Positions 366-62,525 of a DNA stretch of 62,525 bases are shown in pieces. The position numbers were made by a program, and so were the translations under genes. The number at the start of each line of letters is the position of its first letter. Positions within the stretch are counted from its first letter, which is position 1. The DNA comes from a virus. The stretch is from the IMG/VR virus record IMGVR_UViG_3300020172_002336, positions 1-62,525 of that record, one strand, 5' to 3'. The notes beneath the pieces were generated by a model. The model saw nothing but the letters and a program-made list of their open reading frames with translations, did no database searches and was not told the DNA's origin.

Positions 366-641
366 ATGAAATACGACATGGCAATTGTAGTGCTCACCAA
401 TCGCTTCGTGTATGTGGGCGAAGTCGACGTGGTCGACAAAAAAGAACTCGGCACGTGGGTGCGTCTCACGGCTGCTCGTAACGTTCGCGTCTGGGGGACG
501 GATAAGGGTCTCGGTCAGTTGGCCGGGGGACCCACTTCCAAGACCGTGCTGGATGTATCCGGCACCGTTTGGGCACCGATGCTGGCTGTTGTCCACATCA
601 TCGAGTGCGACGCTGCCAAGTGGCGTGCCAAGCGCTCGTAA
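366..641 (+). CDS. Small conserved phage protein, DUF6948-like (91 aa)
   Basis: The ATG at 366 follows an AGGTGG ribosome binding site. The sequence has a pattern seen in a widespread phage family of unknown function: a hydrophobic strand (VVLTNRFVYVGEV), then LTAARNVRVWGTDKGLG, then GPTSKTVLD. I associate it with DUF6948-type proteins from memory, without a search. It starts 2 nt after the last Gly-rich gene and its TAA stop forms the left half of the palindrome that leads into the next gene. Confidence 0.6.
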   Translation: MKYDMAIVVLTNRFVYVGEVDVVDKKELGTWVRLTAARNVRVWGTDKGLGQLAGGPTSKTVLDVSGTVWAPMLAVVHIIECDAAKWRAKRS

Positions 642-9570: not shown

Positions 9571-12500
9571 ATGGCGAGACGATTGATTGGACTCGACTTC
9601 GAGACCCACTACGACAGCAAGTTCTACACGCTGCGCAAGATGGACATTCCGTCATACATCTGCGACCCGCGTTTCGAAGCTACGCTCGTTGCCGTCAAGG
9701 AGGGCCACAATCCGGCGTTCATTGTCGACGGACCGGACATCCCCCGTTACCTGCAGGGGTTAGGCGATCCGAAGGACATTACCCTCTACGGGCACAATCT
9801 GATGTTCGACGCTTGCATCGCGTCGTGGATCTACGGCTGGCGTGCTGGGCTTAACATCTGCACGCTGGCGCTGGCCCGCCAAACGATCCAAGCCTACTGC
9901 AGGTCGTTGTCGTTGAAGTCCGTACTTGAGTATCTTCGCCTGCCAGCCAAGGGCGGGTTCCTGTCCATGGTGGATGGGATGCGCCGCGACGACATCATCG
10001 CTGCCGGGTTCTGGCAACAGTACTGTGAGTACGCGGTGGGCGACATCGACGGCGCGTACGGCATCTACCAGCAGCTAGCACCTCTGGTGCCGCCCGAGGA
10101 GCACGTCATCGCTGACATGGTGCTGCGCATGGCGACCGAACCGTCGTTCGATCTGGACCAGCCTCTGCTGCAGGCACATCTGGACGACGTCATCGAGAAG
10201 AAAGAGGAGATGCTGGCGTTCGCCATGATCGGCGGCTCGCTCCGCGGCAAGGAAGACCTCATGTCGAACGACAAGTTCGCTTTGGTCCTCCAGTCGCTGG
10301 GTGTCGACCCTCCCACCAAGATGTCGCCTGTCACCGGCAGGCAGGCGTGGGCGTTCGCCAAGTCCGACGAGGGTATGAAGGAGCTACAGGAGCATCCGGA
10401 CCCCGTTGTGCAGGCAGTTGTCGCGGCTCGGCTGGGGCACAAGACCACGCTGGAAGAAACCCGCACGGCTCGGTTTCTGAATTGCAGTACCCTAACGTTC
10501 CCGGCCTATGGCGTGGGTAAGTTCCCCGTACCCTTGAAGGTAAGCGGGGCGCATACTCATCGGTTGTGTCTGGTGGGTGAAACAATTATTTGCACTTTGC
10601 GGGATAACCGTGTAGTGTACGATCGTCTTGACTGCCTACGCGCTACTGATCTGGTGTGGGATGGCGAGGCGTTCGTGGCCCACGGGGGACTAGCCTATGC
10701 CGGACGAAAGCGAGTTATCACTCACGACGGTGTCACAGGGACGCCCGACCACCGGGTCTTTACCGGGAAAGGGCAACTCGCGCTGGCACTTGCAAAGGCG
10801 CAAGGCGAGGACATTACTCGTGGAGGAGTTCCTGATCCGGCACGGGTCGAAACGACTGTGCACAGGGGAGATCACGTATCATTCCAGAGTGGAATTCCAC
10901 TGCAGCAAGTGCGGGGCCGTTTGTCGGGCCATGTGGAAGGATCTAACGAACCGAGACCGGGTGTTGTGCAAGTCGTGCGCGATTACCGCGCGCATGGCGG
11001 GCGTGAAGCCCTCCACCAAGATGTTAGCCGCTTCGGCCAGACAGAACGTAGACGAAGCTGCCAAGGCGAGAGCGCGGCGGGTAGTGTTACCCTTGCAGGC
11101 AAGCCAGCCGCTGACACGGGAAACGACACGTTCGCAGGCGCGTCGTTTGTCGGTGAGTTGGAGCCCTTCGGATTGGAAGACCGCCTTGACGACGGCTACT
11201 CGTGTGTTCCAGCGATGCACCAACCCCCGCATATCGAGCTACCCGTACTACGGCGGCAGGGGGATCGAAGTCTGGTTTGCCTCGCCAGCGTTGATGGCGG
11301 ACTGGTTGCTGAAAAACTTAGGACCACGACCGCTGGGCCAGTCGCTCGATCGGATCATGTCCAACGGACATTACGAGCCGGGGAACTTACGTTGGGCGAC
11401 GAAGGAAGTGCAGATGAAAAACCGCAATTCATGGAAACATGGGACATAATCGACTGCGGACCTCGCAACCGCTTCATGGCTAATGGCCGCCTTGTTCATA
11501 ATAGCGGTGACTGGAAATATAACGCGCAGAACATGCGCCGCGGCGGCAAACTTCGTAAGTCTCTCAAGGCACCACCCGGCCACACGGTCGTGGTCGGCGA
11601 CGAAAAACAAATCGAAGCGCGCATGGCCGCCGAGTTCAGCGGGCAGGCCGACCTCGTCGAGCAGTTCCGACTGGGCGTGGACACCTACGCCGCGATGGCG
11701 ACCAAGATCTTCGGGTTCGTTGTCGATCGTAAGGTTCACGTGCCGCAGGGGTTCGTCGGTAAGACATGTCTCGGCGCTGACACTCTGGTGTTGACAGATA
11801 GTGGATGGAAGCCTATCCCATACATCTTGGCTTCCGACAAAGTATGGGACGGTATGGCGTGGGTGACGCATCAGGGATTGATCTACCAAGGGGTGAAGCC
11901 GGTACTGACGAAGTACGGCGTGACGGCAACTTCGGACCACGAGATCAGTTTGGGAAGTTCGTGGCTGGAGTGGAGCGCGGTATGCGCGGACCGCCGCCTT
12001 TTCCAGTCGGCAGTCGCGTCGGTTCGTTTACCGTGCTCGGCTACGTCAACCACAAACAAGGCTGGCACCCAATCTGCCAATGCGAGTGTGGGCGAGCGGG
12101 CCGCGTCGACCGGCACAACCTCAAAAGCGGCAAGTCAACTCGGTGCCGTAAATGTTTGGGCGCGAGGCACTCTAAGAACTTTGCACTGTACCGCGACATC
12201 CTGCCTGACGATGCTCACAGACGCCGTCTCGCCAACCGCATCAGGGCCTGCATTGACAGGTGCCACAACCCAAAGAACCGGGTTTACCGCGGCTACGGCG
12301 GGCGAGGCATACACGTCCACGAAGCATGGCGTACTAACATCGGCACGTTCTTGGCCTACGTGCAGTCGTGCGCGGGCTGGGATGACCCGGCTCTCCACAT
12401 GGATCGAACAGATAACGAGAAAGGTTACGAACCGGGCAACATTAGGTTCGTTACCATCACAGGAAACAACCAAAACCGAAGGGAGGTTTGGAAGCTGCAG

Positions 12501-13242
12501 CTTCGCATCGACGAACTTGAAGCCCGTCTACGACATTGCAAATGCGGGGCCGAGACATCGGTTCACGATCCTGACTGATGAAGGGCCGCTGGTTGTCAGC
12601 AACTGCGTGCTCTCGGGCATGTACGGTGTTGGGCCGCCGAAGTTTCGTAGCTCGGTTATTCATCTGTCCAAAGAACAGACCGGCACGAGGATCGACGTCG
12701 ACGTTGATCTGGGGCCGACCGTTACCTCGGAGACCATCATTGAAGCCTACCGTCGTGAGACGTGGGCGATCACTGAGATGCGGAAGCGGCTGAACAACTG
12801 CATCCCGCTGATGGCCCAGCCCGATTGTAACTTCTTCGTCGGGGCAGTGCAGTTCCTCTACCAGAAGATCAAGCTACCAAACGGCCATTACCTCTACTAC
12901 AATAAGCTACGTTTCGACGACACGTCAGGCAGTTGGATCTACGAGTACGCCGGACGCTGGAAACGCATCTACGGCGGTGCTCTTTTGGAGAACATCATTC
13001 AGGCGCTCGCGCGTATCGTGACCATGCACGCGGCGCTGCGCCTGCGCCCCGATCTGAGTAAGTACAACTGGAAGCTGGCACTGCAGGCGCACGATGAACT
13101 CGTCTTGATAGTTCCGAACGACCACGTGGACTGCGCCAAACAACGCCTCAAGGAAGAACTTACCCGGCAGGTAACATGGATGCCCAACCTGCCGGTCGAT
13201 GCTGATATTGGATCAGGCCCCACATACGGAGATGCGAAATGA
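9571..13242 (+). CDS. Family A DNA polymerase with 3'-5' exonuclease, interrupted by two inteins (1223 aa precursor)
   Basis: The precursor contains a DnaQ-type exonuclease domain (DFETH at residues 9-13, GHNLMFDACI near 77, YAVGDIDGAY near 155) and a polymerase domain: SGAHTHRL/SGDWK region, motif A VVVGDEKQIEAR at about 673-684, motif B in the GKT/CVLSGMYGVG region, and motif C AHDELV at 1173-1178. Intein 1 is residues 333-644 and intein 2 residues 733-1011; removal leaves 632 aa, a usual length for phage Pol A with exonuclease. The second intein splits the O-helix (motif B), so activity should require splicing. Start follows GGAAGG. The stop overlaps the next ATG. Confidence 0.92.
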   Translation: MARRLIGLDFETHYDSKFYTLRKMDIPSYICDPRFEATLVAVKEGHNPAFIVDGPDIPRYLQGLGDPKDITLYGHNLMFDACIASWIYGWRAGLNICTLALARQTIQAYCRSLSLKSVLEYLRLPAKGGFLSMVDGMRRDDIIAAGFWQQYCEYAVGDIDGAYGIYQQLAPLVPPEEHVIADMVLRMATEPSFDLDQPLLQAHLDDVIEKKEEMLAFAMIGGSLRGKEDLMSNDKFALVLQSLGVDPPTKMSPVTGRQAWAFAKSDEGMKELQEHPDPVVQAVVAARLGHKTTLEETRTARFLNCSTLTFPAYGVGKFPVPLKVSGAHTHRLCLVGETIICTLRDNRVVYDRLDCLRATDLVWDGEAFVAHGGLAYAGRKRVITHDGVTGTPDHRVFTGKGQLALALAKAQGEDITRGGVPDPARVETTVHRGDHVSFQSGIPLQQVRGRLSGHVEGSNEPRPGVVQVVRDYRAHGGREALHQDVSRFGQTERRRSCQGESAAGSVTLAGKPAADTGNDTFAGASFVGELEPFGLEDRLDDGYSCVPAMHQPPHIELPVLRRQGDRSLVCLASVDGGLVAEKLRTTTAGPVARSDHVQRTLRAGELTLGDEGSADEKPQFMETWDIIDCGPRNRFMANGRLVHNSGDWKYNAQNMRRGGKLRKSLKAPPGHTVVVGDEKQIEARMAAEFSGQADLVEQFRLGVDTYAAMATKIFGFVVDRKVHVPQGFVGKTCLGADTLVLTDSGWKPIPYILASDKVWDGMAWVTHQGLIYQGVKPVLTKYGVTATSDHEISLGSSWLEWSAVCADRRLFQSAVASVRLPCSATSTTNKAGTQSANASVGERAASTGTTSKAASQLGAVNVWARGTLRTLHCTATSCLTMLTDAVSPTASGPALTGATTQRTGFTAATAGEAYTSTKHGVLTSARSWPTCSRARAGMTRLSTWIEQITRKVTNRATLGSLPSQETTKTEGRFGSCSFASTNLKPVYDIANAGPRHRFTILTDEGPLVVSNCVLSGMYGVGPPKFRSSVIHLSKEQTGTRIDVDVDLGPTVTSETIIEAYRRETWAITEMRKRLNNCIPLMAQPDCNFFVGAVQFLYQKIKLPNGHYLYYNKLRFDDTSGSWIYEYAGRWKRIYGGALLENIIQALARIVTMHAALRLRPDLSKYNWKLALQAHDELVLIVPNDHVDCAKQRLKEELTRQVTWMPNLPVDADIGSGPTYGDAK
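10567..11502 (+). mobile_element. Intein 1 of the DNA polymerase (312 aa)
   Basis: It starts at Cys333 (CLVGETIICTLRD, block A), has block B as GVTGTPDHRVFT, and ends with block F WDIIDCGPRNRFMANG and block G RLVHN, followed by Ser as the first C-extein residue. The nucleophiles Cys1, His-Asn at the C-end and Ser+1 are all present, so splicing looks competent. Between blocks B and F about 665 nt remain open in the intein frame but give a featureless sequence without any in-frame endonuclease motif; an HNH endonuclease is encoded there in another frame. Confidence 0.88.
10697..11449 (+). CDS. HNH homing endonuclease nested out of frame inside intein 1 (up to 250 aa)
   Basis: This frame is +1 relative to the polymerase. 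It encodes a zinc ribbon (HCSKCG and LCKSC) and the HNH homing core of the type RCTNP, YYGGRGIEV, LDRIMSNGHYEPGNLRWATK, ending KNRN. The ATG at 10697 has GGGGGA eight bases upstream but would overlap block B; a GTG at 10820 after GCGAGG gives a shorter protein that starts beyond block B. It ends 53 nt before the intein end, inside block F. The likely role is cutting intein-less polymerase genes, doing in trans-frame what an in-frame intein endonuclease does. Confidence 0.85.
   Translation: MPDESELSLTTVSQGRPTTGSLPGKGNSRWHLQRRKARTLLVEEFLIRHGSKRLCTGEITYHSRVEFHCSKCGAVCRAMWKDLTNRDRVLCKSCAITARMAGVKPSTKMLAASARQNVDEAAKARARRVVLPLQASQPLTRETTRSQARRLSVSWSPSDWKTALTTATRVFQRCTNPRISSYPYYGGRGIEVWFASPALMADWLLKNLGPRPLGQSLDRIMSNGHYEPGNLRWATKEVQMKNRNSWKHGT
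11767..12603 (+). mobile_element. Intein 2 of the DNA polymerase (279 aa)
   Basis: It starts at Cys733 (CLGADTLVLTDSGWKPI, block A), has block B as GVTATSDHEIS, block F as VYDIANAGPRHRFTI and ends PLVVSN with Cys as +1 residue. The residue before the terminal Asn is Ser, not the usual His, so splicing may rely on other residues. The insertion point is within motif B of the polymerase. About 550 nt between blocks B and F are open in the intein frame but carry no endonuclease motif (Thr/Ala/Ser-rich); an HNH gene is read there in a different frame. Confidence 0.87.
11982..12578 (+). CDS. HNH homing endonuclease nested out of frame inside intein 2 (198 aa)
   Basis: This frame is +2 relative to the polymerase. 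The ATG at 11982 has GGAG six bases upstream and yields the typical N-terminus of phage HNH enzymes (PVGSRVGSFTVLGYV), followed by CQCECG and CRKC, then RCHNP, YGGRGIHV, LHMDRTDNEKGYEPGNIRFV and NQNRR. The open frame extends back to 11805 but without a good site. It starts just after block B and its last 20 or so codons are also read as intein block F, so that stretch is truly dual-coding. It ends 25 nt before the intein end. Confidence 0.88.
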   Translation: MRGPPPFPVGSRVGSFTVLGYVNHKQGWHPICQCECGRAGRVDRHNLKSGKSTRCRKCLGARHSKNFALYRDILPDDAHRRRLANRIRACIDRCHNPKNRVYRGYGGRGIHVHEAWRTNIGTFLAYVQSCAGWDDPALHMDRTDNEKGYEPGNIRFVTITGNNQNRREVWKLQLRIDELEARLRHCKCGAETSVHDPD

Positions 13243-21962: not shown

Positions 21963-23206
21963 GAGTTATCGAACATGCCGGGGTTCACGACGTGCCTTGC
22001 CACCAGCCCGTGTTTGCGGTGGAACACGAGCGCCTGCATCTGGCGTCGACTGCGGTAGCCGTGGTTGGCGGCGTAAGCATCCGCCGACGCCAGCACGCCG
22101 AACATTTCAACGAACCCACCGGGATACTCGGTCCTGTCTTCGTGGTGCCCGTGCCCGATCATCATGAGGCGGTACTCGGTGCGCCCCCAGATCTCGGCTT
22201 GGTCAGTTGCCATCACGGCGAGCAGCTTATCTCTCTTGACCTTGTCGCCGTGGTGCGTAGCGATGAACACTTTCCCGAACTCGTAGTAGTGAAAGAACTT
22301 CGGCGAGCAGTCGATGCTCACGCGAGGCTCGTTCTCGTATAGATGCGAGAGGAACACCGTCACCGCCGCGGCAGTGGACGGGTCATGATTGCCCTTCTCG
22401 AATATCACGCGCACGCTCTGGTGCCGCTCAAGGGCCGCCGCGATCATGTGCCGGATCATGCGGACGCCTACGTCCACCATCTTCGGGTAACGTCCGTCGG
22501 CATCGAGTAGGTTTTTGTGGGTAGGTGTGACGCTGTCGTAGCTGTCGTAGTGGAAGAAGTCCCCAAGGAACGCGATCAAGGCTTGTTCGCAAGGCGGGCA
22601 GGTGTCAATCAGGCGACGGGAGGCATCCTGTAAAATCTGCTCAGCGGCCTTGAGGTCGTAGTTATCGCCGCCTGTCTCCTGATCCCAAGCCAGCATGCCG
22701 ACGTGATGATCGCCCACCGGGTAGACCGCCAGCAAGTCCATATGCGAGAAGCCCTTAGGTTTGGCGGCCGCTTTAACTGGTTTGATGTCGCCCGCGAGCT
22801 TCTCGGCGAATGTTATCCACAGCGCCTCGCGTTGTGCGTCCTCTGGCTTTTCAGAAACCCACTGCTGCGAGACCCGACCTTGCTGGTCGTATAGGGTGGA
22901 CAGCTTGGTGATCTTCTTGGGATCAGGAAGCTGCACCGCATCCTCTGGCTCCCTTCCCGCAAGTTTGGACTTGTCCCACCGGCCGATCTCATTGCCCTCT
23001 CGATCGTAGAGCGTGGACTGGCCTTTGATGACTAGTTTGGGCGGTATCGCGGAAGTAAATCCGCGCCGTCGCGCCTCTCTCAACCGACTATCGTAAGTCG
23101 ATCGGCTCAGACCCATCGAGTTACCCGCGGCGGTAATACCTCCATGTATCGCTAAGGCATCAACAGTGTCTTGGCATACTTTATCGCTAAGCGGGGCTGA
23201 CGACAT
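21959..23206 (-). CDS. Calcineurin-like metallophosphoesterase with N-terminal helix-turn-helix-like region (415 aa)
   Basis: Residues about 15-60 (ITAAGNSMGLSRSTYDSRLREARRRG) look like a helix-turn-helix. The catalytic domain carries the five metallophosphoesterase motifs: VGDHHVG, FLGDFFHYDS, EKGNHDP, THHGD and GHGHH. Such proteins occur in many podoviruses next to the virion genes; substrate unknown. It is the first - strand gene of the rightward block in map order and the last one transcribed. A palindrome copy encodes ITAAGN near the N-terminus. Confidence 0.85.
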   Translation of the reverse strand: MSSAPLSDKVCQDTVDALAIHGGITAAGNSMGLSRSTYDSRLREARRRGFTSAIPPKLVIKGQSTLYDREGNEIGRWDKSKLAGREPEDAVQLPDPKKITKLSTLYDQQGRVSQQWVSEKPEDAQREALWITFAEKLAGDIKPVKAAAKPKGFSHMDLLAVYPVGDHHVGMLAWDQETGGDNYDLKAAEQILQDASRRLIDTCPPCEQALIAFLGDFFHYDSYDSVTPTHKNLLDADGRYPKMVDVGVRMIRHMIAAALERHQSVRVIFEKGNHDPSTAAAVTVFLSHLYENEPRVSIDCSPKFFHYYEFGKVFIATHHGDKVKRDKLLAVMATDQAEIWGRTEYRLMMIGHGHHEDRTEYPGGFVEMFGVLASADAYAANHGYRSRRQMQALVFHRKHGLVARHVVNPGMFDNS

Positions 23207-23460: not shown

Positions 23461-26400
23461 TCAGCGGGTAATGGGGACGTTGTAGTAGTCGGTCGCTGCG
23501 CGCAGATGACGATCGCGCTTCGAGAAGTTCATACCATCCGCGCGGTCTGTGCTCAACTTCTCAAGATCCCGACGACGCTTCTGGTCCATCAGGTCGCCCA
23601 GTTTGATCTTCGCGTTGTCAGGCTGGTCGCTGTTCCACTTGGTGATCTCGCGCCACATGGCCGTCTTCTCGTCCGGCGAGGCGTTGATCCAGTCGTTAGA
23701 CAGCTTCTCCCGTGCCGCCTTGAACTGGCGCTGGTCGCCCTTGATGGCGAACGTCTTCTCGTTGCGCTCAGCGACGTCTCCGGGTGTAAAGCCCGCCGCC
23801 TTGATGATCGCGTCACCCATGCTGACAGGCTCCATCTGCTGGCGGCCAGAGGGACTTTTTCTACCTTCCGTGTGCCACTGGTACGCCTGCACGCTGTCGG
23901 CCCAGATTTTGAGCGGCAGGAGCAGCCGGCTCGCTTCCACGACGTCACCCTTAGCCAGCGCCTGAAAGCCCTGCACACCGTCAAACAACAGCGCGGTGGG
24001 AGCGCCCGCGAGGTTCTTCGCCAGCCACGCCCACAGGTCGTCAGACTTCATGCTCTTGGGATCCTGCCCCGAGGTCAGAAGACTGTTGAAGCTGACGCGC
24101 GAGGCGAGGTCGATGCCAGCCCACCGAGCGACACCGCGAGAGAAGATCTGACCGCCCTCGACGCCGAAGACGTTGGCCGCGCCAGCGCGGACGCCCTGCT
24201 CGAAGTCTTCGTACGTCTTGTCGGTAATGCCCAGCAGCCCGGCAGCCATGAGCCCGAGCCGGATCGGTTCCAGAGGCATGCCCAGCGCGCCTGCGGTCAC
24301 CATATGGGTGGCCATCAGGTAAGCGAACGTCTTCATGGCCTGCTTGTCGCCCCTGAACGAAGCGATCGCGGTCTTACCCAGCAGGTAATATGTGCCCTGC
24401 GCGTACTTCTTAAACTGCAGCGCCAAACGTCCAACAGGGTGATTGAAGATAGGCGGCGCGTTCCACGCTGCGTAATCCTTCATGGCGTCGTGGACCTGCT
24501 CGACGGCGTACTCCATCGCCTTGTCGTGGCTGGCACCCTTCTTACGCTCCATCTTATAGGCAGCCGTTGCCGTCACGGCACGGTTGACACTCTCGACGGC
24601 AGCCCCGACCTGACGCGCCATAAGGTCAGCACGGTCGATGGCACGGCCCGTGCGGGACGTGCTCATATCCGTGATGCGCGACAACTCCATGCCCGCGTCG
24701 CGGGACATGAGCCCGACATCGTGCAGGTGGTTGAACAGCTTGACCAGCCCATCACCATGCTCGGCGTCCTTCGCCACGCGCTGGGTGAGGGTCGACTGAT
24801 AGTCCGTAAGATCGGCGTTATGCCCGGACTTCCCTGCGCGATAAGTGTCCCGTAGACCGGCACCGACGATCGTCCTGCCGCCGATCAGATTGTACGCGCT
24901 TGACAGCGACTTGATGGTAGGCAGCATCCCGTGCCGTGCCGCCAACAGCGGCAGCGTGACCGTCCACGGCTCGGAACTGTTGATGACATGGAACGCCGGG
25001 CTCGCCAGCTTGTCGAGATACGACAACTGCAGGAGGCGGTTCGTGGCGCGATGGAACAACGTATCCACGTCCGTGTCGTTCATCGCGTGAGCGCGCTTGG
25101 TGAGTTCGTTCAACCGCTGACGACGTTCGGCCGGAAGGTACTCGTTGTTACCTGCGTGGGTCATGCGCTCGGTGTAGTCCGTCATCTTCTTGAGCGCAGC
25201 GTCCACCTCCGGGCGGTACCGCAGGCGCGCGAGATAGCCAGCCGTCGACGAGGCGTAGACGCCAGTGTTCTTGAGGATGTCGTCCGAGTACCCGAGTATG
25301 TTATTTCGCGGGAGACGGTGGCTCTGGGCACGCGTGCTGCCCATCGACGCGATACCAGCCTCACGAAGCTGCCGCACCAGTTCGTCCTGTGCGGTCTTAT
25401 CAAGCCTCTTGAACCCTTCCCGCTTCTGCAGGCCGTTCAGTAGGCGCTGCATCTGCAGCGGCATGAACGCGTCGTTCATCTGAGCCGGGTCGAGCTTCTT
25501 CACGTCGACGTGAGTGACGTCGCGCAGCCCCTTGTCGATCAGCCCTTGGCGGCTCTCCGCGGCGGCGCTGGCCTGCTCGTGGAACTCGACGTGCTTCGGC
25601 TCAATGGTCACCCGCCAGCGCGCCTCGGCGTTGGGCTCCTCCTTGATGCTGATCGGCTTCTTCTTACCTTCGGCATCGAGTCGGTAGTGGCTCTCGGTAA
25701 CCGGGTCGACGCCCACCTTGGAGACCTCAGTCGGGCGCAGGCCACGTTCAACGAGGGTCTTCTGCACGAAAGTCTTAGCAGCTTTCTCAGTCTTGAACTC
25801 GTAGGTGTTGCCCTTCGCGTCCGGCGCTTCCTCATCGTTGATGCGGCGAGCGCCAGCGGGCGCTTCCACTTCGTGCCGGGCCGTCACAACGAAGTCGCCG
25901 CGGCGCATGAAGGGCACGTAAGGTCCTTCGACGCGCGTCAGGGCGCCGGCCTTCTGGATGCTGGACAGCAGGCCGTCCTTGCCCAGCACGATCTTATCGG
26001 CGTCCGTGAGCTTCTTGTTGAAGATGCGCTGCGCCAGCGCCTCGGAGCCCCTGCCATCCGACGACGCCGCCTTGAGCGCGTTGCGGATCAGCCCCAGCGA
26101 CATCTGGTTCTGCGTCTCGCGGAAGTAAGCCGTCGCCTCGTGGAACAGGTCTTTCAGTTCCTGCGGCATCTTCTCGTAGCGAGCCGACAGGTCCTTATGA
26201 ATTTCCATCTGGTACCAGTTGCCGGGGCTATCCGTCTTGAACTGGTTGCTGACCACTTCGTCGGGATGCACACCGGCACGGCTGGCGTCGTGCGCCAACT
26301 CGGCAAAGTCCGTCCATTGCGATCGGCCGTTGGTACGCTGGTCGAACTTGCGCTGTGCTTGGCTCATGTTCTTGATGAGCGGCTCGGCCCTCTCACTGAG

Positions 26401-29400
26401 GATCTTGTTCTTCATCGTGGACATCTTGCCCATGGCCTCGGCCAACTGGCGGGCGGGACGGTCCGCTCCGAACAGGTGATCGGAGTTGTTGGTCATCTGC
26501 ACGACGCTAGCGAACTTATCGAGCACGCGCTGGCTGCGCAGCTTCCAGTCGATCTTCGCCGGGATGCGCGCTTCGAAATACTCACGTGGGCTCACGCGCA
26601 GGTTCGCGGAAGCGGCTGAAAGAGCGCGTATATCGTTTCGGATCTCGGCCGGTTTTTTAATGCTGCTGTCTATCGCCATTCCTTCGCCAACGGCACGCAT
26701 CGCCATTTCAAGGGAATTGAACTCGTGCATGCTCTTGAGGCCGAGCAGCTTGAACGTCATGTCAATGAGTTTATCCCACGCCGTGCGCGCGATACCCCAG
26801 CGGGTAACAACCGGCTTATCGAGGTTGACGCCACGCAGGATGTCTCGGAACTCTGGATTGGCTGCCGTCTCAGCTAGAAATTCGTGCTCGTTGTGGAAGC
26901 CGTATTCGCGGCGGAACTCCGGTATTTTTTCTAGGACATGATCCATCAACTTTCGCACGTCAGCGCGAAAACTCAGATCCAAATCAACCGCACGCGAAGT
27001 GATCTCATGGACGCCCTCATGGATCACAACCAATGGGTCGCGAGACCACCGCTTGGGTAGAATGATAATCCCGGGCTTGGCGGGATCGTTATTCCTGTAT
27101 TGAGCACCTCCAACATCCTCAAGGCCGTTCGCGTCCCACACGGCGTCAGGAACAATATGAACGATGCTGTCGCCGCCTTGGTCCAGCAGCTTACGTTTAA
27201 CAGCGGCGGCTAAGGCTTTATCCCCGGGGCCATCGCCCGGCGATCCCAACCCGTTTAGGTGTTCTTTAAGCGTGACTTTGGTTGAAGCCACGGTGCCAGC
27301 TTCAAGGTTTTTGCGCAGCGTGTCCATGTTCTGCCGCGTTTGGGCCGCTCGCTCAGAGGCCGTTAGGACCTTCGCGTTGCCCTCGTCGACGCGTTCTTTC
27401 ACGTCTACATCAGCGTCATCCTTGACTGCCAGATCGTCGAGCGCATCTCTCGCCGACACGACCTTTTCACCCGGCTTAATTTTGCGCGTAGCTGCAGTCT
27501 CCGCAGACGCGTCTTCGCCCTGCTCCGCGGCCAGCCTCTTAACCTCGGCCTCGATCTCGACTTTACCCTTGGGGGTAACGGTCTCCTTGGTGAGCGCATC
27601 GCGCCCTCCACGCATCTCGTGGTCGAGCGGCAGGAACTCAGTGAATGCTTCGTTGAGCCGACGCGCTTTCTCAGCGGGGTCCTTTTCGTTGAGGGCGCTC
27701 TTGACTTTCGCGTTGAATTTGTCGGCGTTGTAGAGGTACTTGCGCCACGGAGTGGTGTTGTTCGCCTCAGGCTGGTCGGTGCGGAACCCAGCCCGCGCGA
27801 TCTGGACGTGCTTCTGCGCAGCCACCACAAGCATGTTGTTGATACGATGTATGATGCTGCGTCGTGCGTCGCCGTCACCGCCGAGCGCCTTGCGCGCTTC
27901 GTCGGCGAGTTCCTTGTCACGCGGCTTATTGTTCTCGTCGGTCCACGTGTCGCGCGCCACCTCCTCGGCAGCAGTCTCGTTGTCGTCTTTCTGGATGTTG
28001 CGCTTTGTGCGCTTATTGTCAGCCTCATTCTCGCGATGCTGGGCGAGCGCATTGTCGACGTGGCGCTCCAGTCTCGCTTCGGGCGTCTCGGGAGGGAGTT
28101 CGGTGCGCTTGAACGTGCTCGGCTTACCAGACGCCTTCGCTTCGGCGCTCGCCTTAGCAGCGGCTTCGTCCTGCAACTTGGTGAGTTCGGCGAACGCCGC
28201 GGTTTCGCGCGCCATGTTCGTCTTGACGATAGTCGCTACCTTGCGCGCTGTCTCGTCGCTGCCTTCACCGGGTAGTTTAGCCTTGATGGCCGTGCGGACC
28301 TTGATGTCCTCGGCGGTTAGCGGGATCTTTTTACGAACAACCTTCGCGCCGGTCTTCGTCTCTCCCTCAACCTTCGGGGCGACCTTAGCCGTAAGCGTGC
28401 CAGCCTTCTTAGCTGCGCTCGCGGCTATCTTAGCTTTGACGTCTGAAACTTGCTTGACGGGCGCGGCGAGCGCGTCCGCGGCGGGTACTTCACCATGAAG
28501 GCTCTTGGGCGCGCGCTGCGTGTCCAGCTTGGTCGTCGGCGCGGTCTTTCCGGTCAGGGCTTCTCCAGCGGCAGTTATACGCGCGCTGCGATCCGCCACA
28601 CCTGCGTTCATCGTGTCAACGGCTTCACCGAGCGCCTTGACCGAACGCGCAAACTTCCCATTGGGATCGTTGATGCGCTTGTGGAAACCGGCAGCCCATG
28701 CCTCTGCGGCGTCGCGCCCCTGTGTTTCGGCGATAACATCGTACTTGGCGTTTACTTTGCGAGCGAACCCTGCGGCGAGCCTGCTCATACCAGCGACGCG
28801 CTCGTCGGAGTAAGGCTTGTTGACCGCGGCAGTCGTGGCTACTCCAGCGTTACCCTCGGGGGTAACGGGCACGGTGAGAGCAGCAGCGCTGGGCTGGTCG
28901 CCCGGCACGTTGGCCTTGGTCTCCACGGCCTCAGGCGACTTGATGACGTCGGCTACGCCAGCCGCAACGGCGCTTGGCTCGTCACCCGGCACGTTGACTT
29001 TGGTCTCGACCGGCGAGGGCGGCTTGGCAGCCTCAGTCGCCTCAGTGATCGGGGTGCGCACCAGCGGCGGTGTCTTGGCGACCTTGCGCTCAGTCTTGTA
29101 TCCGTTGGCCGTCCGCGTGAGTTCGCCGGACGTCCTCATGGCCGTGAGGATGCCCACGATCTCAGTCGGCGGTGGCGCGTCGTCACCGAGCAACACCTTG
29201 ACGGCGTCGTGGATCTCGGTTGCCCTCATGCGCTTGGTAGCGACAGTGTGGATCGCGTTGACCACTGCTTCGGACGGCCCAGCGGGCGGCGGCGTGGGTG
29301 TCGTCGCGGGCGGCGGCACGTTGGGGTCCGGCGCAGTCGCCGCGCCGGGCGGCTTGAGTGCGTCGGGTGAGCCAGTTGCGGCAGCGTCGATCTGCGTGTC

Positions 29401-30396
29401 GAGCGCAGTCGGTCCATCCGGGGTTAGCGCCGAAGTCTGTGCCGGGTCGGGCGCGACGCCGTCGACCGTCGCCTTCTGGGTCGCGTCTCGTGCCGTCTTC
29501 TCGTCCAGCCGCTTGGAAGCCCAGCCGCCAGCCGCGTCCCTAGCCTTGCCGAAGCCACCGCCAACGCCAGCCATGCCACCGGCAAACACACCGCCCTCCA
29601 GACCCGAGTTAGCCGCAGCACGAATAATCGGCACAGGGTCGTAGTCGACGCGCTTGCCGACGTTCATTTCGCCTTGTTGGTTGGAAACCTCCCGGCCCGC
29701 ACCTTCCAGCGCGCCGCCAAGTGCGCCTTCGCCCGTGCTGATACCAGCGCCCTTGATAACGCCGTGCTTCGCGCCCACGCCAATGGCGCGGCTAATGGGA
29801 ACGGCACCGGCAGCACCGCCAACGGCAGCGGGGACCATGCTGCCGGTGAGTATATCATCAACAAGCAGCTTGCGCGCGTACTCGACGGGGAGCCCGCGCT
29901 CCATGTATTCTGCGTACTTGGGAAAGTCCTTGAGAAGTTCTTCCTCGCTGGCCTTCTCGATACGTCCTTTCGTGTCGGAGATAAGAGAGCCAGCGCCAAG
30001 CGCGGCTCCGACGATGGGGGCTAGGGAGCCAGAAGCCACATAGGCAGCGACGGGTGCGGCAGAACTTGTCCCCTTCATCACTAAGCTGCTACCGAGGTTC
30101 TGGAATACGCTGCGTTGACCCGGCTCGGGGAAGAACGCCGCATCACGATCCTTGCGGCGTTCCTCTGGAATGTATGTGTCGATCTTGTCGCCGACATTGC
30201 GCGCCGTCTTGGCGATAGCTCCGACTATTCCATCGTCGCCGCCGACGGCTTCCCCGGCCACCTCGGCAGCGGGAGCGATGACACCACTGAATAGTCCGCT
30301 CCCAACAGCCAGCGCGGCGGATCCCGCCAAACTCCCACGGTCTACAGGCTTGTCGTCATCGGGACCGTAAAGTTGGCTGGGGATCAGAGCGGCCAT
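23461..30396 (-). CDS. Giant internal virion/ejection-type protein with Zn-peptidase-like motif (2311 aa)
   Basis: One 6.9-kb reading frame. Features: N-terminal 200 residues Gly/Ala-rich and hydrophobic, Pro/Thr-rich linkers at about 320-560, long charged coiled regions, an HEGVHE zinc-peptidase-like motif at 1126-1131, and a C-terminal helical region with HPVGRLALQFKKYAQGTYY that recalls the C-terminal domain of giant phage proteins annotated as PLxRFG. Proteins of this size in podoviruses are packed in the head and ejected into the host envelope. Three palindrome copies lie inside (24373, 27562, 28849). Confidence 0.75.
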   Translation of the reverse strand: MAALIPSQLYGPDDDKPVDRGSLAGSAALAVGSGLFSGVIAPAAEVAGEAVGGDDGIVGAIAKTARNVGDKIDTYIPEERRKDRDAAFFPEPGQRSVFQNLGSSLVMKGTSSAAPVAAYVASGSLAPIVGAALGAGSLISDTKGRIEKASEEELLKDFPKYAEYMERGLPVEYARKLLVDDILTGSMVPAAVGGAAGAVPISRAIGVGAKHGVIKGAGISTGEGALGGALEGAGREVSNQQGEMNVGKRVDYDPVPIIRAAANSGLEGGVFAGGMAGVGGGFGKARDAAGGWASKRLDEKTARDATQKATVDGVAPDPAQTSALTPDGPTALDTQIDAAATGSPDALKPPGAATAPDPNVPPPATTPTPPPAGPSEAVVNAIHTVATKRMRATEIHDAVKVLLGDDAPPPTEIVGILTAMRTSGELTRTANGYKTERKVAKTPPLVRTPITEATEAAKPPSPVETKVNVPGDEPSAVAAGVADVIKSPEAVETKANVPGDQPSAAALTVPVTPEGNAGVATTAAVNKPYSDERVAGMSRLAAGFARKVNAKYDVIAETQGRDAAEAWAAGFHKRINDPNGKFARSVKALGEAVDTMNAGVADRSARITAAGEALTGKTAPTTKLDTQRAPKSLHGEVPAADALAAPVKQVSDVKAKIAASAAKKAGTLTAKVAPKVEGETKTGAKVVRKKIPLTAEDIKVRTAIKAKLPGEGSDETARKVATIVKTNMARETAAFAELTKLQDEAAAKASAEAKASGKPSTFKRTELPPETPEARLERHVDNALAQHRENEADNKRTKRNIQKDDNETAAEEVARDTWTDENNKPRDKELADEARKALGGDGDARRSIIHRINNMLVVAAQKHVQIARAGFRTDQPEANNTTPWRKYLYNADKFNAKVKSALNEKDPAEKARRLNEAFTEFLPLDHEMRGGRDALTKETVTPKGKVEIEAEVKRLAAEQGEDASAETAATRKIKPGEKVVSARDALDDLAVKDDADVDVKERVDEGNAKVLTASERAAQTRQNMDTLRKNLEAGTVASTKVTLKEHLNGLGSPGDGPGDKALAAAVKRKLLDQGGDSIVHIVPDAVWDANGLEDVGGAQYRNNDPAKPGIIILPKRWSRDPLVVIHEGVHEITSRAVDLDLSFRADVRKLMDHVLEKIPEFRREYGFHNEHEFLAETAANPEFRDILRGVNLDKPVVTRWGIARTAWDKLIDMTFKLLGLKSMHEFNSLEMAMRAVGEGMAIDSSIKKPAEIRNDIRALSAASANLRVSPREYFEARIPAKIDWKLRSQRVLDKFASVVQMTNNSDHLFGADRPARQLAEAMGKMSTMKNKILSERAEPLIKNMSQAQRKFDQRTNGRSQWTDFAELAHDASRAGVHPDEVVSNQFKTDSPGNWYQMEIHKDLSARYEKMPQELKDLFHEATAYFRETQNQMSLGLIRNALKAASSDGRGSEALAQRIFNKKLTDADKIVLGKDGLLSSIQKAGALTRVEGPYVPFMRRGDFVVTARHEVEAPAGARRINDEEAPDAKGNTYEFKTEKAAKTFVQKTLVERGLRPTEVSKVGVDPVTESHYRLDAEGKKKPISIKEEPNAEARWRVTIEPKHVEFHEQASAAAESRQGLIDKGLRDVTHVDVKKLDPAQMNDAFMPLQMQRLLNGLQKREGFKRLDKTAQDELVRQLREAGIASMGSTRAQSHRLPRNNILGYSDDILKNTGVYASSTAGYLARLRYRPEVDAALKKMTDYTERMTHAGNNEYLPAERRQRLNELTKRAHAMNDTDVDTLFHRATNRLLQLSYLDKLASPAFHVINSSEPWTVTLPLLAARHGMLPTIKSLSSAYNLIGGRTIVGAGLRDTYRAGKSGHNADLTDYQSTLTQRVAKDAEHGDGLVKLFNHLHDVGLMSRDAGMELSRITDMSTSRTGRAIDRADLMARQVGAAVESVNRAVTATAAYKMERKKGASHDKAMEYAVEQVHDAMKDYAAWNAPPIFNHPVGRLALQFKKYAQGTYYLLGKTAIASFRGDKQAMKTFAYLMATHMVTAGALGMPLEPIRLGLMAAGLLGITDKTYEDFEQGVRAGAANVFGVEGGQIFSRGVARWAGIDLASRVSFNSLLTSGQDPKSMKSDDLWAWLAKNLAGAPTALLFDGVQGFQALAKGDVVEASRLLLPLKIWADSVQAYQWHTEGRKSPSGRQQMEPVSMGDAIIKAAGFTPGDVAERNEKTFAIKGDQRQFKAAREKLSNDWINASPDEKTAMWREITKWNSDQPDNAKIKLGDLMDQKRRRDLEKLSTDRADGMNFSKRDRHLRAATDYYNVPITR

Positions 30397-59733: not shown

Positions 59734-60534
59734 ATGGACTTCAACAACGTCCTACGCGAGATGGTGGCCAGCACCAATGGCTCGCAACAGGAGACCGAGG
59801 TGGTCGAGACCGGCAACCAGCCGAACGCCGCCGCTACCCGCGACGCGTTCCTCAAGCAGGTGCGTTCGTTCGGCCGCGACGAGGGCAACGGCGTGTCCGC
59901 GCGTCTCAAGCTGGCCGGTCAGTTGACCGAGGCATCGCACTTGGGTGCGGTCATGGAGGACGACGTCGACGCGATTTACGAGCAGTATGCGAAGGGTGTC
60001 GCGCAGGCCAAGGGGCTGGCCGTGGTCAAGTCCGGCAGCGAGACGCAGCAGAAGTCCAAGCTGCGCACGTTCATCAAGCTGGGCGCACTCGCGTCGATCG
60101 ACGGCCGCAAGACCTTCGAGAAGACGCGCGACGCCTACAAGGAAGCGGTCGTGCAGAACGGCAACAAGCCGCTGACCAAGTCGCCCTTCGACGCGCTCCT
60201 CGCCGCGGCGCGCATGCAGATCCAGTATCCGGACGAGATCCTGCCGGACGACTTCATTCTCACGTGCGTCTACCCCAAGACCAAGGACGAGAAGCTCGAA
60301 GTCGACAAGCTGGGCGCGATCGTCGACAGCATGGACCGGCTGCGCGTGAACGAGGAGACGCCGTGCTCGGAGGACACCGAGGTGGTGCTCCAGAACGCCA
60401 TCGACGCGCTCATGCAGCGCATCAAGGACATGGGCGGCACGTCGGCCATGAAGAAGGCCGAGGAGAAGCTCAAGGCGCAGCAGGCCAAGGCCGAGCAGGT
60501 CGTGGCTGAACTCAAGGCGCGACGCGCCTACTAA
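59734..60534 (+). CDS. Hypothetical helical protein (266 aa)
   Basis: GAGGTG lies six bases before the ATG. Mostly charged helices, with a C-terminal coiled coil (MKKAEEKLKAQQAKAEQVVA). Strong GC-rich codon use suggests high expression. Not recognised. It is followed by a palindrome (60542-60559) and a hairpin. Confidence 0.7.
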   Translation: MDFNNVLREMVASTNGSQQETEVVETGNQPNAAATRDAFLKQVRSFGRDEGNGVSARLKLAGQLTEASHLGAVMEDDVDAIYEQYAKGVAQAKGLAVVKSGSETQQKSKLRTFIKLGALASIDGRKTFEKTRDAYKEAVVQNGNKPLTKSPFDALLAAARMQIQYPDEILPDDFILTCVYPKTKDEKLEVDKLGAIVDSMDRLRVNEETPCSEDTEVVLQNAIDALMQRIKDMGGTSAMKKAEEKLKAQQAKAEQVVAELKARRAY

Positions 60535-60930
60535 CGGGGCCGTTACCTGACGGGGTAACGATCTGAGAAGGGCGACGGCGAGGGGTCTCGTTCCCTCGCG
60601 GGGTCTCGTACCCTAACGCCGTCGCCCTTCGACTGATCGGTGCAGAGATGATACCGGGCGGGGTGCGCACGTCAAAGCGACAGCGTGCGTTCAAAGCACC
60701 GATCAACCTAGGCGACACAGCCATCCGTAGTAGCAACCGACAGTCCTAACTACAGCTTCGGCCAACAGTTCAGGAGTGATCGTGCGTGATGCAGCTCAAT
60801 GTGGCTGATTGATGGGGAAGCTGAGGTCGACACGCGGGCGGCAGGTGGTGCGGTGTTCAACGTCAGGCTCTCGTACCTGACGGGTCCGATCGTAGTCACC
60901 TGCCGTTGCCGCTTACCCGAGGAGATAATG
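60535..60930 (+). other. Intergenic region with palindrome and long hairpin
   Basis: No gene seen. A palindrome (60542-60559) is followed by a perfect 14-bp stem (60567-60580 with 60617-60630) whose loop holds two copies of GGGGTCTCGT (60582, 60600) and TACCCTAACG. This may be a terminator or processed RNA element. Confidence 0.5.
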
Positions 60931-61164
60931 ATGGCACACGAGAACGTCGGTAAGTGGGCTGGGTCCAAGTGGACCGGCAGGTACTGGGAGGGTGGCTGCA
61001 CCTGCGGCAGCGGCAAGGAGGGACGCGAACTCCAAGACGGTCGCGGCATCTACTGCGGCATCACATGTGACGTCTGCAAGCGTGAGGACACCTACCGCAA
61101 GGTCGTGATGGATACGCACTACAACGAGTACGACGTCGATGAGCGGATCGAGGAAGACTACTGA
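60931..61164 (+). CDS. Cys-rich small protein (77 aa)
   Basis: Preceded by GAGGAGATAATG. GGCTCGSGKEGREL and YCGITCDVCKRED give four Cys residues placed like a zinc finger. The acidic C-terminus ends DERIEEDY. The stop overlaps the next start (TGATG). Function unknown. Confidence 0.65.
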   Translation: MAHENVGKWAGSKWTGRYWEGGCTCGSGKEGRELQDGRGIYCGITCDVCKREDTYRKVVMDTHYNEYDVDERIEEDY

Positions 61165-61397
61165 TGTGCTCGCGCCAGAACTTATACCCCAACGCGCATG
61201 TACTCACCTACTACCTCTCAAAGTGGGAGGCGGCTGGGCTATTGGAACTGCGTACGCGCGGTGCCGAGCGCGCCCTCCACCACAGCAACGCCAACTACTG
61301 GGGCCAGACATACGTCAACGAGTGGCACGGCACCGAGGGTTCGTTTGTCGAGCTTGAGACGAACTCAGTCACTGACCAAACTCACCCGCGAGGGTAA
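61164..61397 (+). CDS. Hypothetical protein (77 aa)
   Basis: ATG overlaps the upstream TGA. Contains LTYYLSKWEAAGLLELRTRG. The TAA stop lies in CGAGGGTAACGATG, two bases before the next ATG. Not recognised. Confidence 0.6.
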   Translation: MCSRQNLYPNAHVLTYYLSKWEAAGLLELRTRGAERALHHSNANYWGQTYVNEWHGTEGSFVELETNSVTDQTHPRG

Positions 61398-61399
61398 CG

Positions 61400-61537
61400 A
61401 TGGACATCGTCATCGCGTTGTTTGTGTTGGCATGCGTGTTCGTTGCCGTGCCGGGTCCGTGGGCGTGGTTCGCCAGCTTCTGGGCCGCAATCTACTTCTT
61501 GTCTGAGGCAGTGGCTTACTTTGGAGGGCAGTTATGA
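61400..61537 (+). CDS. Small membrane protein (45 aa)
   Basis: Start in GGGTAACGATG. Almost entirely hydrophobic: MDIVIALFVLACVFVAVPG, then WAWFASFWAAIYFLSEAV, giving two closely spaced membrane helices. Similar in size to the gene at 59408. Function unknown. Confidence 0.65.
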   Translation: MDIVIALFVLACVFVAVPGPWAWFASFWAAIYFLSEAVAYFGGQL

Positions 61538-61695
61538 ACTGGATGATCCGGCACCGCGACGATCGCGGCGCGTGGTGGCACATCAACTTCGGGTGGACAA
61601 CCTACGAAAAAGCGACGGTCTTCAACGCACGCGAGAAGGAGGCATACCATGGCGACGCTCCCCGCTCTGGCATCTGGAAAATCCGCCGTGCCTAG
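61534..61695 (+). CDS. Small Trp-rich hypothetical protein (53 aa)
   Basis: ATG overlaps the upstream stop with GGAGG six bases before it. MNWMIRHRDDRGAWWHINFG then a basic end. Overlaps the following gene by 47 nt. Not recognised. Confidence 0.6.
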   Translation: MNWMIRHRDDRGAWWHINFGWTTYEKATVFNAREKEAYHGDAPRSGIWKIRRA

Positions 61696-61948
61696 TTTCC
61701 GCGTTGGATGGCGCGACCGCTTGGATGGGCAGGGCTTCCCTCGTGCATACGAAACGTGGACCTACCGCCAGCAGGTCGCCTATGAGGAGGGGCGGCGCGT
61801 CGCTGCTCTAGTGCAGGCCATGCCGTACCCTAACAAGCTGGCCACGCGCCGCCCCCAACCAAAGAGATTCCCCGCCCTGTTGCGCGTCGACGTAAGAGAC
61901 GAACGCGCCGTCACCCGCCAAGCCGGTAGTCGTTACCCCAAGAGGTAA
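61649..61948 (+). CDS. Basic hypothetical protein (99 aa)
   Basis: AAGGAGG precedes the ATG. Basic throughout, with YETWTYRQQVAYEEGRRVAA and Arg/Pro-rich tail. Last gene before the Gly-rich array; the array's first start lies in the palindrome that overlaps its stop. Confidence 0.65.
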   Translation: MATLPALASGKSAVPSFRVGWRDRLDGQGFPRAYETWTYRQQVAYEEGRRVAALVQAMPYPNKLATRRPQPKRFPALLRVDVRDERAVTRQAGSRYPKR

Positions 61949-61952
61949 TGCG

Positions 61953-62111
61953 ATGTTGTTCCGGTATAGCGACGACGGCCACGGCTGTGGCGATGGCTAT
62001 GGCGATGGCTACGGCGGCGACGGCGACGGTTACGGCGACGGCTACGGCAGCTATAACTACGGCAACGGCTACGGTTCGTCAAAAAGAGACCCAGAACAAC
62101 GGTGGACGTGA
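61953..62111 (+). CDS. Gly-rich hexamer-repeat protein, first paralogue (52 aa)
   Basis: MLFRYSDDGHGCGDGYGDGY and further Gly-Asp/Tyr/Asn repeats, ending SKRDPEQRWT. The ribosome binding site is GAGGTAATGCG from a palindrome. The TGA overlaps the next ATG. Confidence 0.7.
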   Translation: MLFRYSDDGHGCGDGYGDGYGGDGDGYGDGYGSYNYGNGYGSSKRDPEQRWT

Positions 62112-62383
62112 TGCTGTTCCGGTATAGCGGCATCTACGACGGCTACGGCTACGGCTACGGCTACGGCGACGTCGACGGCGACGGCGACGGCTACGGCTAC
62201 GGCTACGGCGACGGCGACGGCGACGGCAACGGCTACGGCGACGGCAGCGGCAGCGGCTACGGCTTCGGCTACGGCGACGGCGACGGCAGCGGCTACGGCG
62301 ACGGCAGCGGCTACGGCTACAGATACGGCAACGGTGACGGCGACGGCTTATCAAAAGAAGACCCAGAACAACGGTGGACGTAA
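62111..62383 (+). CDS. Gly-rich hexamer-repeat protein, second paralogue (90 aa)
   Basis: Begins MLFRYSGIYDGYGYGYGYGD and continues with Gly-Asp, Gly-Asn, Gly-Ser and Gly-Tyr units, ending SKEDPEQRWT. Starts and stops overlap both neighbours (TGATG, TAATG). Confidence 0.75.
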   Translation: MLFRYSGIYDGYGYGYGYGDVDGDGDGYGYGYGDGDGDGNGYGDGSGSGYGFGYGDGDGSGYGDGSGYGYRYGNGDGDGLSKEDPEQRWT

Positions 62384-62525
62384 TGCTGTTCCGGTATAGC
62401 GGCGTCTACGACGGCTACGGCTACGGCCACGGCGATGCCGGCAACGGCTACGGCGGCACCGCCAACGGCAACGGCAACGGTGACGGCGACGGCAACGGTG
62501 ACGGCGACGGTGACGGCAATGGCAA
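62383..62525 (+). CDS. Gly-rich hexamer-repeat protein, third paralogue, 5' part (continues at position 62 of the circle)
   Basis: MLFRYSGVYDGYGYGHGDAG, then GYGGTANGNGNGDGDGNGD-type repeats; it shares long identical blocks with the paralogue at 140. With the 61-base end overlap counted once, the frame runs on to the TGA at 138-140. Confidence 0.65.
   Translation, partial: MLFRYSGVYDGYGYGHGDAGNGYGGTANGNGNGDGDGNGDGDGDGNG

Follow-up and report, generated by a model that had tools for sequence, protein, structure and literature searches.

A phage protein with a predicted Sm/LSm fold and its glycine-repeat (Gly-X) partner

The repetitive genes found at the two ends of the phage contig analysed here are the amplified half of an apparently undescribed two-gene cassette that is found in many phages, and which pairs a small protein with a predicted RNA-binding-type (Sm/LSm) fold with a flexible, acidic, tyrosine-rich glycine-repeat protein. 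The two are sometimes joined as one protein, which suggests that phages use an Hfq-like protein with a detachable low-complexity tail, a reading to which a probability of about 0.6 is given. The window is the whole 62,525-base virus record IMGVR_UViG_3300020172_002336, and within it the constant partner of the repeat genes is encoded immediately downstream of the array at 366-641 (+).

On the circle, the ends of the record sharing an exact 61-base overlap inside the repeat, four Gly-X genes lie head to tail on the plus strand. Gene 1 (61953-62111, 52 aa) begins MLFRYSDDG and ends SKRDPEQRWT, gene 2 (62111-62383, 90 aa) begins MLFRYSGIY and ends SKEDPEQRWT, gene 3 (62383-62525, continued at 1-140, 73 aa in all) ends SKEDPEQWWA, and gene 4 (140-364, 74 aa) begins MLFRYGFGF and ends SPKDQEQRW, with junctions of TGATG, TAATG and TGATG. 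The observation of an earlier note, that four overlapping genes all starting MLFRY and ending in a DPEQRW motif form a tandem array here, is therefore confirmed, although the tail motif is looser than the note stated in genes 3 and 4. Of the Gly codons in the array 96 are GGC and 10 GGT with none GGA or GGG, against 313:147:78:116 (GGC:GGT:GGA:GGG) in six long genes of the same genome, which is far from chance and a sign of homogenisation. The 61-mer at the contig ends occurs three times (1-61, 183-243 and 62465-62525), thus the closure that makes the record look circular may be an assembly effect, and whilst genes 1, 2 and 4 are complete inside the contig, gene 3 and the exact copy number remain provisional. 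Genes 3 and 4 also share a 77-base exact block.

The interpretation put forward in that note was only partly supported. The suggestion of constant ends with a variable core that changes by repeat turnover is upheld, as is the absence of any description of such a family in the literature searched, and the formation of condensates remains plausible as an inference from composition. Calcium binding through DxDxDG-like stretches is not supported as the function of the family, as only 47 of 201 cores contain DGDGDG and the order of X is nearly random. What the note missed is that the array is one half of a cassette, the other half being the Sm-like gene directly downstream, and that the family is widespread in phages rather than peculiar to this one.

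PHROGs and Pfam matches in the genome show an SU10-type portal, a major head protein, an internal virion protein, a family A DNA polymerase, a primase-type protein, an SNF2 helicase, a MoxR-type ATPase and a VWA-like protein, with no tRNA and no Rfam family found in the window. Scans with the DNA polymerase gave nothing and with the MoxR ATPase one relative, so no close relative of this phage was found, and blastn of window 60500-62150 against phages gave no match. The closest genomes found are Rhizobium phage RHph_TM3_14A and a 62,560-base IMG/VR contig (G001), with 34-46% identity in the shared ATPase and VWA proteins. The pattern GGCNACGGCNACGGCNACGGC is absent from G001, no Gly-X ORF is found in the 41.9-kb stretch of the Rhizobium phage that was examined, and DUF6948 is absent from both records, although the same search also misses the divergent window gene and absence of the window subfamily is less certain. 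G001 keeps an ortholog of the gene upstream of the array and of the ATPase. This is consistent with the gain or loss of the cassette as a unit, but with relatives this distant it does not date the event.

An exact DNA pattern for the DPEQRW-MLFRY junction found nothing in viral contigs, and a search with the Gly-X protein confirmed only 4 loci of 599 candidates, low-complexity filtering being the likely cause. The four contigs found in this way carry Gly-X genes with other N-terminal heads, mostly in tandem arrays. Three of them have, beside the array, a gene matching Pfam DUF6948 (PF22253, a domain of unknown function) at E 1.3e-19 to 1.8e-32, and the fourth, a 457-kb phage (G005), has a single DUF6948 at 22249-22509. 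The window gene at 366-641 (91 aa), which starts 1 base after the stop of Gly-X gene 4, is a divergent relative that scores 21.1 bits (E 3.5e-4) against the curated Pfam cut-off of 27 bits, with a six-frame search of the record also giving no match, and it is thus called DUF6948-like here. It is nevertheless 53% identical over 88% of its length to a protein of Rhodobacter phage RcapNL and aligns over the whole domain with DUF6948 proteins, with G18, W43, L49, A53 and G55 invariant in 11 sequences of both subfamilies. It belongs to a separate subfamily with a WGTxKGLGELA motif, but canonical members of DUF6948 sit beside Gly-X genes too.

It is apparent that DUF6948 and Gly-X genes form a near-obligate pair. 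All 11 phage records retrieved through the partner gene had a Gly-X stretch beside it, an example of such a pair being genes 47 and 46 of Rhodobacter phage RcapNL. Scans of viral contigs with the two partner subfamilies and of cellular genomes with one gave 213 loci, in which a Gly-X ORF lies within 300 bp in 75 of 80, 78 of 80 and 44 of 53, a total of 197. A control scan with a single YqaJ-type nuclease returned only its own contig, so other ORFs of the same loci served as control anchors, and these predict 14.0 instead of 197. Seven of the 16 exceptions end within 280 bases downstream of the match. In the other direction, 80 loci chosen by a Gly-X DNA pattern alone contained DUF6948 within 1.5 kb in 66 cases, and in 11 of the other 14 the pattern lies within about 520 bases of a locus end. 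As the loci are not independent, counts rather than probabilities are given. Other neighbours are diverse, with the commonest cluster occurring in 21 loci and, judged by eye, YqaJ-, VRR-NUC-, ERF- and HNH-like proteins among them, whilst annotated phage records show Erf, RecE, Bet and SSB genes nearby.

The spacing of the two ORFs points to coupled translation. In 153 of 178 pairs a possible Gly-X start codon overlaps the DUF6948 stop, most often at -13 or -4, and in 22 more it lies within 20 bases, although starts were chosen nearest the stop, which favours overlap. In the window the order is reversed, with the Gly-X genes first. In two contigs, L242 and L069, both parts form one ORF. A different fusion is seen in gut Bacteroidales and Clostridia contigs (L199, L201, L202, L204-L207 and L209-L211), in which the Gly-X stretch carries a conserved C-terminal domain of about 150 residues (FAHG...WHxxLTGSC...GR) that folds confidently in AlphaFold but has no Pfam or NCBIfam match and no convincing PDB match, the Gly-X stretch of that model having a pLDDT of around 22-27, which is predicted disorder.

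The fold of the partner was predicted by AlphaFold with 73 sequences, giving a pLDDT of 94.6 and pTM of 0.85, with five strands and a helix between strands 3 and 4. The Foldseek list is dominated by Sm/LSm chains (best E 4.5e-3), with the LSM14 domain 6f9w at rank 24, and all 50 listed PDB rows of a second structural alignment are Sm/LSm-type (Z 8.7 to 7.3, the best over 65 residues at 2.2 A), the NatC row being an Sm-like subunit. No listed row of another fold competes, although a Z of 7-9 on a small barrel is moderate. A sequence-profile search of PDB finds no Sm protein, so the link is structural only, and at the sequence level there is a weak Pfam LSM14 match (E 0.0024) to one relative, the DUF6948 protein of locus L004. 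No Hfq match was found among the Pfam hits of the window protein or three relatives. The most conserved residues of the window subfamily (W43-L53, G55 and P56) lie between strands 3 and 4 and not in the two loops that bind RNA in known Sm proteins, so RNA binding at the usual site is not supported by conservation, and the conserved face may instead bind the Gly-X chain or a host protein.

Across 272 Gly-X ORFs, a few of which are other reading frames or unrelated Gly-rich proteins, X is Tyr 29.5%, Ser 22.3%, Asp 21.4% and Asn 8.9%, with 8 to 74 units per ORF. In 201 filtered cores 188 have at least 10% Tyr in X, five lack Asp, D+E is 12.2% and K+R 0.5%, and the order of X is close to random within each protein, with one of 16 neighbour pairs departing by more than 3 standard deviations. 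The mix depends on the partner subfamily at matched GC: over all loci canonical DUF6948 goes with Ser 30%, Tyr 28% and Asn 5%, and the window type with Ser 9%, Tyr 42% and Asn 13%, which hints at co-evolution but is not corrected for phylogeny. Within a gene the third base of Gly codons is nearly invariant (median entropy 0.00 bits) while bases 1 and 2 of the X codons vary (1.23 and 0.99), yet the dominant codon type differs between phages (GGC-NNC, GGC-NNT, GGT-NNC, GGG-NNC). The simplest account is rapid turnover of hexamer units by slippage or recombination, which wipes out silent differences, with selection on the composition of X. Searches of Pfam, PHROGs and NCBIfam give only composition-type matches to Gly-X proteins. 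Most loci carry one gene, with one plus-strand Gly-X ORF in 158 of the 197 paired loci, whilst the window has about four, record G002 has 11, and in G005 68 tandem ORFs with several recurrent N-terminal heads fill most of 21.5 kb (L358, 13-21541) behind one DUF6948 gene.

The best explanation is that the Gly-X protein is the detachable, disordered, acidic Tyr/Gly-rich tail of an early phage Sm-like protein, probably acting on RNA or an RNA-processing ring and possibly condensing. What the analysis itself establishes is the adjacency in both directions, the ORF spacing, the natural fusions, the predicted fold, the conserved composition of X with its nearly random order, and the frequent presence of recombination and replication genes nearby. 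The remainder is inference, including expression and any direct contact between the two proteins: that the Sm-like protein forms a ring and binds RNA or an RNA-processing host ring, while the acidic chains attach to it and supply weak multivalent (sticker-spacer) contacts, so that the pair would concentrate, shield or release RNA early in infection, as the Gly-rich or acidic tails of Hfq and Sm proteins may do in cis. It is likewise inferred that tandem copies and longer repeats raise the dose and valency of the tail, and that hexamer slippage and unequal recombination scramble the order and homogenise silent sites while selection acts on composition. A bolder version, doubtful on present evidence although not excluded, is that phages encode a ribonucleoprotein-condensate system, in which an Sm-type ring with a separate, dose-adjustable, disordered tail protein gathers RNA into a compartment early in infection, a viral counterpart of eukaryotic Sm proteins with low-complexity tails.

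The nearest rival, though an unlikely one, is that the Sm-like protein is a host-takeover inhibitor that docks on a host ring protein (Rho, Hfq or an RNase), as the cellular Sm-like protein Rof does with Rho (PMC11018626), with the acidic Gly-X chains acting as nucleic-acid mimics that block it, for example for antitermination of early phage operons. The predicted fold, the acidic chains and the position among early-type genes would fit, but no host target is known, the presence of the cassette in hosts of many phyla would need a very conserved target, Rof itself did not appear among the listed structural rows, and the conserved Tyr content is not explained. A structural or extracellular role, in which Gly-X proteins form silk-like or amyloid fibres or bind calcium through DGDGDG loops, is considerably less likely; the strict alternation does resemble silk-type repeats, but three quarters of cores lack DGDGDG, the order is near random, the neighbours are recombination and replication genes and not virion genes, and the Sm-like partner is left unexplained.

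It is also improbable that the repeat matters as DNA or RNA, as a recombination, packaging or replication signal, with the reading frame incidental. Silent sites are nearly uniform within each gene and the repeat lies at the contig ends here, yet the amino-acid pattern is kept while the dominant codon type changes between phages, the start and stop codons overlap, the repeat is fused to protein domains, and as the 61-mer is internal too the ends probably reflect a failed assembly. Least likely is targeted diversification of X codons by a diversity-generating retroelement, for although variation is concentrated at positions 1 and 2 of the X codons, the X spectrum is narrow (Y, S, D and N are 82%) and no reverse transcriptase (RVT_1) was found in this record or in records G002-G005, whilst the same search detected it in 3 of 14 control genomes.

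Sm-type proteins with a Gly-rich tail in one chain have precedent in the Hfq of Moraxellaceae, with the repetitive glycine-rich C-terminus of Acinetobacter Hfq being an example (PMC5663733), and the fusions in L242 and L069 have this layout. In Hfq the tail is in cis on a host protein, whereas here it is usually a separate, overlapping phage gene with strict Gly-X alternation, sometimes in tandem copies. Eukaryotic Sm/LSm proteins with RG or Gly-rich low-complexity tails, LSM14 included, share the predicted fold and the association with a low-complexity chain, but the cassette is phage-encoded, its chain is acidic Tyr/Gly rather than Arg/Gly and is a separate gene, and its ring and RNA binding are inferred. 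Rof (YaeO), an inhibitor of Rho, is a small cellular protein of bacteria with an Sm-like fold that acts on an RNA-binding ring, and no Gly-X partner appears in the account of it that was consulted (PMC11018626). The Gly-X chains are Gly-, Tyr- and Ser-rich, composition-driven and, from the model of a fused relative, predicted to be disordered, as in the low-complexity domains (LARKS) of FUS/hnRNP type (PMC8551513), but they have strict alternation, are acidic and contain no Gln, and phase separation would be an extrapolation from composition. The acidic charge also recalls tails that compete with nucleic acid.

No paper was found on DUF6948, none printing the repeat GYGDGYG and none on the combination, in a search that did not cover most subscription papers or any bioRxiv preprints, and in the family libraries searched only the DUF label covers any part of the pair. 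The cassette appears to be new in kind as a system, while the predicted fold of its Sm-like half is a known one. It is carried by phages of many environments and found on contigs binned with several bacterial and two archaeal groups, yet one half is labelled only as of unknown function and the other is hidden from standard searches by low-complexity filters, and it is the predicted fold and the natural fusions that turn it into a concrete hypothesis. Since composition is conserved while order is nearly random, with natural variants of 8 to 74 units and 1 to 68 genes, it would also be a natural experiment on how composition and valency of disordered chains set function.

Two further genes of the window are of note. 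The family A DNA polymerase (9571-13242, 1223 aa) aligns to the 636-aa polymerase of RHph_TM3_14A in three blocks, and the two inserts, at about residues 333-644 (starting C and ending HN before S) and 770-1006 (starting C and ending SN before C), look like two inteins in one polymerase, although Pfam gave no intein domain. On the minus strand at 23461-30396 a 2311-aa protein matches PHROG families of unknown function and, more weakly, one annotated as DarB-like antirestriction.
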